Positions 13,424 to 18,386 of a DNA stretch of 45,979 nt are shown one piece after another (position 1 is the stretch's first letter; each line of letters begins with the position of its first letter). The notes beneath the pieces were generated by a model. That model searched no databases and had not been told where the DNA came from. It was given only the letters and a program-made list of their open reading frames with translations. The stretch is from a virus, in IMG/VR virus record IMGVR_UViG_3300042923_000305, positions 1 to 45,979 of that record; one strand, given 5' to 3'. The translations under genes were made by a program, and so were the position numbers.

Positions 13424-13666
13424 ATGAACGACAGATTTTTCAAAGGATACAAACCAAATTTCTTTTTCAAAACAACGGATGAGCCTCTTCCCATAGGAAT
13501 TGTCATGCCGTGGGAAGAAGAGGCGCTTTTGAAAGAAATGAAGGATAAATTTCAGCAAAAGTTTGAAATATCGTATGAGGAATATAAAAGAAAAGCATAT
13601 GCGGACGTATTAAAACATCCACTAACCAGCGAAGTATACAAACCTAGAGAGGAGGTTAAACCATGA
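13424..13666 (+). CDS. Unknown 80-aa protein
   Basis: ATG 13424 after AAGGGGAGATAAGC. Aromatic N-terminus (FFKGYKPNFFFK), then a charged helix. Overlaps the ArpU-like gene by four bases, so the two are coupled. No family recognised. Confidence 0.65.
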   Translation: MNDRFFKGYKPNFFFKTTDEPLPIGIVMPWEEEALLKEMKDKFQQKFEISYEEYKRKAYADVLKHPLTSEVYKPREEVKP

Positions 13667-14208
13667 ACATGGACACGCGAAAGCTACTATACAAGTCCGA
13701 GCAGATAAAACAAGCCAGACAAAATGCACTGATAGCCATTGACACGCTAGAGGACCGCGATAGACGCTATCGCAATGACCTGAACTGGTTTATACGTGGA
13801 AGTGTCCCAAGCGACCGCACAGCGGCTGTTGTGATCTCAGAGGAGGACACGGTTAGCAAGATCGAGTATCTACGCTGGATTGTGCGAGAGCTAAACGTAA
13901 TCATTGATGCCATCAGCCGGGCAGCGGCGACACTTAACCCGGAGTTGCATGAGTTGATTAAACTGCGATACTTCGACGATGGATCGGTTACCGCTGTTAC
14001 CATGAAAATGGGCATCAGCGAAAGCGCCTATAACCACAAGCACGGGATAGCGTTAAAGGCCATGACGGCCTGTCTCAACCCGTTGTGCATTACGGAGGAA
14101 CATTTGGATGGGCTGCTATTTGAGCCTTACAAAAAGCGTCTGGATGCGTTGGGAAAACCAAAAAGCAGAGAATATCGAGGGAAAATCAAAGGTTCGACGG
14201 CATCTTGA
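13663..14208 (+). CDS. ArpU-like late transcription regulator
   Basis: A 181-aa helical protein. The N-terminal 100 residues are helices typical of the ArpU/RinA family, and LHELIKLRYFDDGSVTAVTMKMGISESAYNHKHGIALKAM (in separate halves, about residues 92-132) is a sigma-region-4-like helix-turn-helix. In Gram-positive phages such proteins sit before the terminase genes and activate or control late transcription. Position here is the same: a promoter, structured RNA and the late genes follow directly. Confidence 0.75.
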   Translation: MNMDTRKLLYKSEQIKQARQNALIAIDTLEDRDRRYRNDLNWFIRGSVPSDRTAAVVISEEDTVSKIEYLRWIVRELNVIIDAISRAAATLNPELHELIKLRYFDDGSVTAVTMKMGISESAYNHKHGIALKAMTACLNPLCITEEHLDGLLFEPYKKRLDALGKPKSREYRGKIKGSTAS

Positions 14209-14210
14209 CG

Positions 14211-14219
14211 TGTTATACT
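14211..14219 (+). promoter_or_regulatory. Extended -10 promoter for the tRNA-like RNA
   Basis: TG-T-TATACT (14211-14219) is an extended -10 immediately after the ArpU-like stop. The -35 is poor (TTCGAC at 14193, 15-bp spacer), as expected for an activator-dependent late promoter. Confidence 0.55.
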
Positions 14220-14241
14220 GGTATTAGTGAGAAGCAAGGCA

Positions 14242-14362
14242 ATGTGGATGGCGGAATAGGTAGACGCATGAGTCGATAAGGTTTGCAAATTGTGGGATAG
14301 CCAAAAGACCACGAAGATCGTAAGATAGCAAACCGTGCAAGGTGCAAATCCTTGCCCACATT
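14242..14362 (+). ncRNA. tRNA-like element without a normal anticodon arm
   Basis: The ends fold as a tRNA: acceptor ATGTGGA (14242-14248) with CCCACAT (14355-14361), one A-C mismatch; T8-G9; D arm GCG-GAATAGGTAGA-CGC (14251-14267) as in tRNA-Leu; T arm CAAGG-TGCAAAT-CCTTG (14338-14354). Between D and T arms lie 70 bases where a tRNA-Leu has about 32. They hold a perfect 7-bp stem GGTTTGC/GCAAACC (14280-14286 with 14328-14334) and inner hairpins, but no 5-bp stem with a 7-base loop and U33. It does not encode CCA. A decoding function is therefore unlikely. Confidence 0.6.
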
Positions 14363-14454
14363 GATTAAGGTGACAAGTCCACCCGACCCAAGTTGAAGTT
14401 GAGTCTTGCGCGGCATGGGCATCACATAAGGGATCGGGGCTATCCCGGTTGATC

Positions 14455-14480
14455 GAGGGGCCATAAACGGCCTCTCTTTT
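14455..14480 (+). terminator. Intrinsic terminator after the tRNA-like RNA
   Basis: GAGGGGCC-ATAAAC-GGCCTCTC (8 bp, one G-T pair) followed by TTTTATTT. It lies 25 bases before the next gene, so it could be bypassed by antitermination. Confidence 0.8.
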
Positions 14481-14505
14481 ATTTACTATGAGGAGGATGA
14501 CGAAG

Positions 14506-16396: not shown

Positions 16397-16897
16397 ATGG
16401 CAGGAAGACCAAGCAAATATGAATCCAATGTAAAGCCGAAACTCCTGCTGATCGAAGCATGGTGCAGGGATGGATTAACGGATGCCGATATATGCAAAAA
16501 CATCGATGTACACGTCGGAACATTTTGTGAGTATAAGAACAAATATCCCGAATTACGGGAAGCCTTAAAGCGTAGCAAGGAAGCAGCGGACATTTTAGTC
16601 GAGAACATGCTATATAAACGGGCCATGGGATACGAGTTTACCGAAGTGACTGAGGAGTTAACCGAGAATGGCATGGTCGAGACAAAACGAGTCAAGAAGC
16701 AAATGGCCCCTGATACAACGGCTCAGATATTCTGGCTTAAGAATCGCAGGCCGCGAGAATGGCGAGATAAACAAGAAGTCGAAGCCATAAACCACAACAT
16801 GAATACAGACGTAACCGCCATGACTCCAGAAGAACGGAGGGAGAGGATTGCAGAGCTTGACCGAAAGCGAAGAATTGGAACTGCTGAAACTACTTGA
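16397..16897 (+). CDS. terS: Terminase small subunit
   Basis: A 166-aa protein. The N-terminal segment (MAGRPSKYESNVKPKLLLIEAWCRDGLTDADICKNI, read in pieces) is a helix-turn-helix DNA-recognition domain of small terminases, followed by LREALKRSKEAADILVENMLYKRAMGYEFTE-type oligomerisation helices and APDTTAQIFWLKNRRPREWRDK, a block found in many small terminases. It should bind the packaging site and feed DNA to TerL, which overlaps it by 50 bases. ATG 16397 follows TGAGGAGGTAACCAC. Confidence 0.9.
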   Translation: MAGRPSKYESNVKPKLLLIEAWCRDGLTDADICKNIDVHVGTFCEYKNKYPELREALKRSKEAADILVENMLYKRAMGYEFTEVTEELTENGMVETKRVKKQMAPDTTAQIFWLKNRRPREWRDKQEVEAINHNMNTDVTAMTPEERRERIAELDRKRRIGTAETT

Positions 16898-18386
16898 GGA
16901 AGAGGAACGGTATCAAGCTGCCACTAATTACTATGAGTACGTAAAATACACACACGGAAGAATGTACGGATACACACGGCATGGTGAGTACATTTGCAAT
17001 GTGTTAAATGATGCTATAGAAAAGCGTGTTCAGATGTTTTCTGGGAATGCACCAATTGAGACACAATATATTATGCTCAGCGTTCCGCCGCAACATGGTA
17101 AGTCGATGCATGCTACTGAAACGTTCCCTAGCTACTTCCTAGGGCGCTTTCCAGATGAAGGGGTTATCGAGGTTTCCTATAACGAAGGTTTTGCCGAGAA
17201 GTTCGGAGGACGCAATAAAGACAAGATGACCGCATATGGCAAAGATTTATTTAATGTCGAGGTATCCAAAGACACGCAGTCTAAAAGCGAATGGGCCGTA
17301 TCTGTGGACGGAAATAAGACTCGCGGAGGTATGATGTCCAGAGGGATCATGTCCGGGGTAACCGGATCATCTTGGGGCGATTGCATCATCATTGATGACC
17401 CGATCAAGAACCGCGAGGAGGCCAACTCTGAGACAATCAGAGAGAAGCACTGGCAGGAGTGGCAAGACTCCATTTCTACCCGTATCCATCCCGGTGCGAT
17501 TGTGATTCTGATTATGACGCGATGGCACGAGGATGATCTATGCGGCAGACTGTTAAATCCAGAGTATGCCAAACCTCTACCATGGAAAGTAATAAACCTT
17601 CCCCTAGAAGCTGAGGGAAACGACTTGTTAGGGCGAGCAGTTGGAGAACCGTTATGGCCAAACCGATATGGATATGACTTTATCGAAGTGCGTAAAGGAT
17701 ATCCTGCTTCCTTTAACGCATTATACCAGGGTAGACCAACCGCCCAAGAAGGGAACATGGTCAAGCGGGATTGGTGGAAATACTACGAAAGCAATCCTCC
17801 ACGATGGGATCAGCTTATCCTATCCGTAGATGCCAGCTTTAAAGATACCAAGGACAGCGCAAAATGCTCCATACAGGTGTGGGGCAGACATGATGGGTAC
17901 ATTTACATGGTGGACAATAACACCGCTAGAATGGACTTTGTAACGACTATACGGGCCATCATGAACATACTTCAGAAGCATCCAGCTATCGGAGCCAAGT
18001 ACATTGAGGATAAAGCCAACGGATCAGCGATTATCTCCATGCTCAACAAAAAGATAGGCGGTTTTATTCCGGTCAAAGCTGACAGCGGTACAGGCGGAAA
18101 AGAAGCGCGGGTATCCGCAATTAGCCCGTGGATTGAATCAGGAAATGTGTGGTTACCGCGTCATCAGGAATGGGTGCATGATTTTGTGGAAGAAGTCGCA
18201 AGTTTCCCGAACGGTCAGTACGCAGACCAAGTGGATGCCATGAGCCAAGCACTGGCGCAGTTAATCCCGGCAATAGGTGTTGGCCTTAACCCATGGGACG
18301 CAAACCCTGATATTAAACATAAAAAGGCCGAGCTAGATGCCTTTGACGATTTTGCAGAAAGTGAGTCTGGAAGCGCATGGGGGTGA
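16848..18386 (+). CDS. terL: Terminase large subunit
   Basis: A 512-aa packaging motor. Walker A is SVPPQHGKS (about residues 79-86) and Walker B CIIIDDP (about 180-186); a motor-coupling TRWHEDDLCGRL follows. The nuclease domain begins at LSVDASFKDTKDSAK (about 325) with its catalytic Asp and continues to DQVDAMSQALAQL near the end. TTG 16848 lies in GGGAGAGGATTG inside terS. Cleavage mode (headful or site-specific) cannot be told from this alone. Confidence 0.93.
   Translation: MQSLTESEELELLKLLEEEERYQAATNYYEYVKYTHGRMYGYTRHGEYICNVLNDAIEKRVQMFSGNAPIETQYIMLSVPPQHGKSMHATETFPSYFLGRFPDEGVIEVSYNEGFAEKFGGRNKDKMTAYGKDLFNVEVSKDTQSKSEWAVSVDGNKTRGGMMSRGIMSGVTGSSWGDCIIIDDPIKNREEANSETIREKHWQEWQDSISTRIHPGAIVILIMTRWHEDDLCGRLLNPEYAKPLPWKVINLPLEAEGNDLLGRAVGEPLWPNRYGYDFIEVRKGYPASFNALYQGRPTAQEGNMVKRDWWKYYESNPPRWDQLILSVDASFKDTKDSAKCSIQVWGRHDGYIYMVDNNTARMDFVTTIRAIMNILQKHPAIGAKYIEDKANGSAIISMLNKKIGGFIPVKADSGTGGKEARVSAISPWIESGNVWLPRHQEWVHDFVEEVASFPNGQYADQVDAMSQALAQLIPAIGVGLNPWDANPDIKHKKAELDAFDDFAESESGSAWG

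Follow-up and report, generated by a model that had tools for sequence, protein, structure and literature searches.

Genes and features of the locus

The DNA analyzed in this work (hereafter: the window) is the entire 45,979-nt stretch of the IMG/VR virus record IMGVR_UViG_3300042923_000305. Positions 13663-14208 (+) encode a late transcription regulator of the ArpU/RinA-like type (PHROG 36, E-value 7.8e-12; PHROG 248, E-value 3.7e-07), and 32 nt beyond its stop codon begins a tRNA-like RNA, which occupies 14241-14363 (+) including the discriminator base. Between the two lies an extended -10-like motif TGTTATACT (14211-14219, +), recognizable in the sequence as a possible late promoter. The first-pass annotation had considered it an extended -10 promoter; the motif is present, but a two-hexamer scan found no promoter near 14211-14219, and we regard a promoter at this motif, upstream of the RNA, as plausible. 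The segment after the motif, TATTAGTGAGAAG (14214-14233), is common to the window and the late leaders of Listeria phages A118 and LP-LmcIH1-8 (counterparts at 1520-1550 of locus L467 and 1922-1940 of locus L002), which hints at a common late promoter. Downstream of the RNA, the intrinsic terminator proposed earlier was confirmed by terminator analysis (at 14455-14476, or 14455-14484, +, as a feature made up of an 8-bp stem and a T run). The terminase genes follow about 2 kb downstream of the RNA, with the small subunit (16397-16897, +; PHROG 309, E-value 1.5e-60) as the first of the packaging genes, and the large subunit at 16848-18386 (+; PHROG 38, E-value 6e-103).

Structure of the tRNA-like RNA

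The acceptor, D and T arms of a tRNA-Leu-like cloverleaf, already noticed in the first-pass annotation, are present, and we corrected their boundaries from 14242-14362 to 14241-14363. The acceptor stem is formed by AATGTGG (14241-14247, +) and the perfectly paired CCACATT (14356-14362, +), in agreement with the covariation of the acceptor in the family described below. One extra base, A14248, separates it from U8-G9 of the tRNA frame (14249-14250, +; invariant columns of the alignment), followed by the D arm GCG-GAATAGGTAGA-CGC with G18G19 (14251-14267, +; assigned from the alignment). The anticodon region is replaced by a segment of about 66 nt (70 according to the earlier description, which is otherwise borne out), closed by a perfect 7-bp stem of GGTTTGC (14280-14286, +; folding, shuffle p 0.008) and GCAAACC (14328-14334, +; folding and the statistic for a helix next to the T arm); folding places two inner hairpins within it, including TTGTGG/CCACGA (14290-14314, +). 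The stem stops 2 nt short of the T stem, the usual spacing in the family and within the 1-4 nt taken as the criterion for its closing helix. The linker between the D arm and the closing stem covers 14268-14279 (+), and for the window RNA the linker-swap test did not support (p 0.58) the pseudoknot from linker into loop that is seen in many relatives. The T arm (14337-14355, +; alignment and loop survey) comprises a 6-bp stem GCAAGG/CCTTGC and a loop TGCAAAT with G at position 55. The discriminator base is G14363 (G73), with no CCA after it.

The covariance model of the family, in which the window RNA is one of the 75 training rows, reported it as the sole match in the window (65.1 bits, E-value 2.4e-15), and the complete family frame, i.e. 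a covarying 7-bp acceptor, U8, D arm, 6-bp T stem and G55 loop, is present. Single-sequence folding gives weaker support (z -2.35). ARAGORN called neither a tRNA nor a tmRNA gene in the window, and the comparison with Rfam 15 returned no match at the gathering score and only two chance hits at E<=10. A decoding tRNA was rejected, in keeping with the earlier view that the RNA cannot decode normally: it has no 5-bp anticodon stem, 7-base loop or U33, and it combines a 7+6 bp stack with TGCAAAT, as opposed to the 7+5 bp and TTC of true tRNA-Leu. The element is a real RNA, tRNA-shaped, with its decoding arm replaced.

A family of RNAs with a constant frame

A sensitive nucleotide search against phage records matched nothing but the two arms, D and T, and the phages in question were unrelated. 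At these places, phages of Listeria, Latilactobacillus, Leuconostoc, Bacillus (phi3T), Lactiplantibacillus and Enterococcus proved to have the same frame around another middle. Pattern and covariance searches together identified at least 322 non-identical members after identical middles had been dropped (the matches of the IMG/VR pattern scans being a lower bound), almost all of them from Bacillota phages or prophages. When prokaryotes were scanned with a single genome for each species, 72 stretches came up, again nearly all from Bacillota, with a few from oddly binned metagenome genomes. Matches were found in 6 of 301 genomes of Bacilli, 1 of 196 of Clostridia and 1 of 198 of Bacteroidia, counts that include the seed genome of each draw and that contradict the idea of a cellular gene. 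A second search, of named phage records, listed matches that carry no tRNA annotation, the underlying feature being 'none' or a protein gene; members, so far unannotated RNA genes, are present in Listeria phage PSA, Bacillus phage phi3T (at about 50.2-50.3 kb of KY030782.1), Enterococcus Schiekvirus phages and Lactobacillus phages Sha1 and phiJL-1. We found no description of the family in Rfam 15 or in the open-licence literature, and within the scope of open-licence papers the window RNA is a member of a large, newly described family of tRNA-like RNAs. This widespread family with exchangeable middle domains is the main point beyond the reach of the first-pass annotation.

The family frame consists of a 7-bp acceptor of free sequence, U8, a tRNA-Leu-like D arm and a 6-bp T stem with the loop UGCAAAU and G55, so that acceptor and T stem amount to 13 stacked pairs, not 12. 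Compensatory changes, on whose presence in the stems the earlier proposal depended, were found: among 75 members that differ in their middles, pairing holds in 99.1% of the cells of the acceptor, D and T stems, and double changes number 312, versus 81 after shuffling and 35-72 in the slid controls, the 75 alignment rows being preselected for pairing. The pairing requirement dropped few sequences, since, of the 253 raw matches to the pattern, 5 or more of the 6 T-stem pairs are present in 249 and 6 or more of the 7 acceptor pairs in 242; the acceptor occurs in 115 different sequences. In loci fetched by the frame pattern, 205 members with the 6-bp T stem and TGCAAAT do not overlap in stem length with 14 true tRNA-Leu genes (5 bp, TTC). 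With the T loop left free in the search, G55 was found in 119 of 120 cases. The covariance model assigns at least 53 bits to members in bacterial genomes and at most 39 bits to tRNA genes, including genuine tRNA-Leu. These results show that, in hundreds of phages, selection maintains the frame for its RNA structure. They also dispose of a decayed tRNA-Leu gene or a chance fold, which the likeness of the D arm sequence to tRNA-Leu might suggest, but which is refuted by perfect covarying stems in hundreds of phages, a near-invariant G55 loop and a uniform 6-bp T stem.

Some members depart from the common plan. A divergent copy with an altered D loop and the T loop TGAAAAT (38.7 bits) is found in Listeria phage LMTA-94 (L469, 1387-1528), and also in A511 and P100; in phages of this type it stops a few bases before tRNA-Asn. 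Enterococcus phage phiFL3A (L471, 1494-1547) has a minimal 54-nt version, from which almost the entire middle is gone. Three loci (L328, L343, L339) have a long insertion in the D loop, instead of or besides the one in the anticodon region, and in eight loci (L092, L102, L112, L238, L259, L295, L323, L449) two different members occur together.

The exchangeable middle

The middles of the 322 members fall into 260 clusters of unrelated sequences. Counting all copies, the middles are unrelated in 16 of 28 pairs of loci that share 600-1100 of the 1200 nucleotides of their two flanks, and in 1 of 18 pairs that share more than 1100 of 1200. Conversely, middles about 98% identical occur with different acceptors and in flanks without similarity (e.g. 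L128 versus L147/L283). The middles are thus shown to be exchanged between phages like cassettes, a behavior for which we know of no precedent in the open-licence literature. With a common frame and different swapped-in cores, phages seem to employ the tRNA shape to carry small RNAs that can be exchanged.

The middles fold modestly better than shuffled sequences (mean z -0.67, n=260), and in 36% a helix that ends beside the T arm reaches p<=0.05. An H-type pseudoknot between linker and loop is indicated in 16% of the testable middles, where the own linker beats swapped linkers at p<=0.05 (5% expected); with this partial support, and none for the window RNA, the pseudoknot was rejected as a universal feature. 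One recurring payload, found with several acceptors, shows 19 double-change cells, two compensated helices and invariant loops, which argues against filler. For the window RNA, covariation of its own is not countable, because no close relatives of its late regulator were found; as its middle also has no relative among the 322 members, a payload function of this particular RNA is suggested by analogy. T-arm-like segments, such as GGTTCGAATC or GGTTTGATTCC, were observed within the middles of L112, L137, L187 and L200.

Genomic neighborhood of the members

About a third of the sampled members come after a late-transcription regulator, as in the window. In 103 sampled members, the upstream neighbors include PHROG 248 transcriptional activators (31), PHROG 36 (28) and PHROG 2198 (12), these counts being overlapping. 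The downstream neighbors of members vary, HNH endonucleases and small terminases being the commonest. Other members are found in tRNA arrays of virulent phages, inside operons and near SPbeta-type genes. Of 255 members, 65 have a tRNA gene no more than 500 nt away, on the same strand in every case, and 36 members are located within 40 nt of a predicted gene start. A sigma-70 promoter of their own was rejected as a general feature, given the inconsistent placement of -10-like motifs upstream of the members.

As to the bases that flank the members, we found preferences but not rules: U at -1 in 47%, A73 in 58% and U74 in 56%. CCA is encoded in 1 of 260 members, versus 135 of 443 named tRNAs that ARAGORN reported in the same loci; the ends of ARAGORN tRNAs are uncertain, so only the CCA counts were used from this comparison. 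Judged by sequence, the member flanks resemble the tRNA processing sites of Bacillota.

ROOL RNA was identified in 6 of 50 carrying records (G003, G006, G007, G036, W01, W02); in locus L151 it lies at 667-1248, directly upstream of a member at 1262-1384, and in L012 it is nearby. An obligate partnership was ruled out by 40 further loci without ROOL. GOLLD was found in 1 of the 50 carrying records, as a sub-threshold match. In Enterococcus phage EFDG1 (L472, 2144-2494) an Rfam-matched phage tmRNA abuts the 5' end of the tRNA-like RNA. PMC12282133 describes non-coding transcripts of extremely high abundance close to the tRNA region of Listeria phage CKA15; its relative LMTA-94 gives a ROOL match, below threshold, in the neighborhood of the tRNA genes, so the CKA15 transcripts may be ROOL.

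Comparison with known RNAs

Among the closest known RNAs is bacterial tRNA-Leu: the D arm of the family is nearly identical to that of tRNA-Leu, and U8, the 7-bp acceptor, G18G19 and C56 are common to both. However, the family has no anticodon arm, a 6-bp instead of a 5-bp T stem, G55 instead of U55, a free acceptor sequence and almost never an encoded CCA, and the window RNA is not called by ARAGORN. G at position 55 is also found in the staphylococcal peptidoglycan tRNA-Gly, which has a GUGC T loop, but that tRNA retains the anticodon arm and accepts glycine. The likeness to tmRNA consists in the retained acceptor and T arm, the replaced anticodon arm and the frequent pseudoknots; the family RNA is, however, far smaller, has a full D stem, G55 and no tag reading frame, and does not match the tmRNA model, and for the window tmRNA is rejected by both ARAGORN and Rfam. 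The Listeria leader RNA rliG (RF02415) occupies the same late-leader place after the late regulator in Listeria phages, but A118 has rliG without the tRNA-like RNA, which PSA and LP-LmcIH1-8 do carry at this late-leader place. The rliG model matches the leaders of A118 and L002 but not the window, and the ROOL (RF03087) and GOLLD (RF02032) models likewise found no match in the window. The closest working likeness is artificial: in the engineered tRNA scaffold used for RNA expression in bacteria, arbitrary RNA replaces the anticodon arm of a constant tRNA frame. The family differs from it in being natural and phage-borne and in its non-standard T arm.

Predicted function and alternatives

We propose that the members are phage-encoded, tRNA-framed small RNAs, processed by the host into stable molecules that display an exchangeable, trans-acting payload; we give this reading an even chance of being correct. 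The constant frame with its likeness to tRNA-Leu (acceptor, U8, D arm, 6-bp T stem, G55 loop) is kept across phages, and structured segments swapped between them stand in for the anticodon domain. Host RNase P and RNase Z would recognize the frame at its 5' and 3' ends, respectively, and release a stable RNA of roughly 80-200 nt from a late leader, tRNA array or operon transcript. Excision of the frame from any transcript would also explain the varied genomic contexts. The non-standard frame, with its 13 stacked pairs, G55 and no anticodon, would keep the RNA out of translation. The payload may then work in trans. Its presumed target would be a component of the host or of a phage and would not be the same for every phage, which is what a role in conflict or specificity leads one to expect; the exchange of payloads points to a target that varies among hosts or rivals. 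Points against the reading are the modest folding scores of the middles, the small share of them with a supported pseudoknot, the lack of relatives of the window RNA's own middle, the looseness of the A73 and U74 preferences, and the G73 and extra base before U8 in the window RNA. If this is true, unannotated RNA genes of well-studied phages belong to one shared system that uses the tRNA shape as a vehicle, an extensive natural collection of structured RNAs, already selected for activity within Gram-positive cells, becomes available, and the question why phage late leaders and tRNA arrays hold so many odd RNAs becomes testable.

A serious, if unlikely, alternative is that the frame is only processing punctuation, which cuts or protects the surrounding transcript, with the middle as drifting and recombining filler. 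tRNAs are known to punctuate mitochondrial RNAs, and the placement of members within leaders, amid tRNAs or immediately before genes (the 36 close to predicted starts), the hypervariable middles and the flanks that look like tRNA processing sites would all be consistent with such a role. Filler would, however, be expected to shrink or decay, whereas the recurring middle keeps its invariant loops and compensatory changes, a closing helix adjoining the T arm is general, and intact, nearly identical middles recur in unrelated frames.

We consider it distinctly unlikely that the members are mimics or decoys for host factors, i.e. mimics in translation or of synthetase substrates, or a sponge against tRNA-targeting defenses with a middle varied against cleavage. 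The very tRNA-Leu-like D arm and the intact G18G19 and C56 speak for it, as does the fact that LeuRS needs no anticodon. Work cited in PMC12851939 adds that phage tRNAs answer anticodon nucleases. The RNAs offer no anticodon loop as bait, and hundreds of structured middles would be superfluous for a decoy. The 13-bp acceptor/T stack is also unlike a substrate of EF-Tu. Of the host tRNA enzymes that the first-pass annotation had suggested might be recruited, those of maturation agree with the member flanks (U at -1, A73, U74, no CCA) and could act on them, but mimicry of a Leu-tRNA synthetase substrate is unsupported as a general function, since the Leu identity element A73 is present in only 58%.

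A cis-regulatory role as late-operon leader, in which the RNA would control read-through of the terminator at 14455 by binding either the late regulator or an antitermination complex, appears improbable. The window RNA is indeed located directly after the late regulator and ahead of the terminator, and 31 of the 103 sampled upstream neighbors match PHROG 248, overlapping with other regulator families. Nonetheless, the middle changes where the adjoining regulator stays similar, and the many members elsewhere, in tRNA arrays of virulent phages, in operons before other genes or near SPbeta-type genes, leave the antitermination leader suggested earlier unsupported as a general function.

It is very improbable that the RNAs are bacterial Y RNAs (YrlA-like) that act as partners of a Ro60 protein. 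YrlA is similar in being non-decoding, having a tRNA-like part and occurring in phages; work cited in PMC12282133 indicates that Y RNAs imitate tRNA and that phages contain them, and that article itself proposes, for a Listeria phage, Y RNAs and an Rsr-like protein near the tRNA region. The family differs in its hypervariable, exchanged middle, and neither partner was found: the TROVE/Ro60 domain was detected in none of the 50 carrying virus records (the Deinobacterium control was positive), and Rfam scans of the window and about 60 member loci found no match to a Y-RNA family. A phage-encoded Ro60 partner is thereby largely refuted; one encoded by the host is possible.

Taken at its broadest, our proposal of a host-processed RNA with a trans-acting payload would mean that phages of Bacillota share a natural tRNA-scaffold system, in which a host-processed frame with swapped payloads gives rise to hundreds of trans-acting RNAs directed against components of the host or of rival phages, with a second frame, of class-I-tRNA type and with long replaced middles, in some of the same phages. 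We put this wider statement forward tentatively, as falling somewhat short of an even chance. The RNAs of this second type have class-I tRNA frames with a normal T loop, often the acceptor CGGAACG, and a long replaced anticodon region. They were observed at position 85 of L096, 3887 of L323, 1106 of L337, 6322 and 8082 of L049, 5449-5553 of L102, and 2156-2295 and 2435-2556 of L182, and some of them share loci with members of the family.
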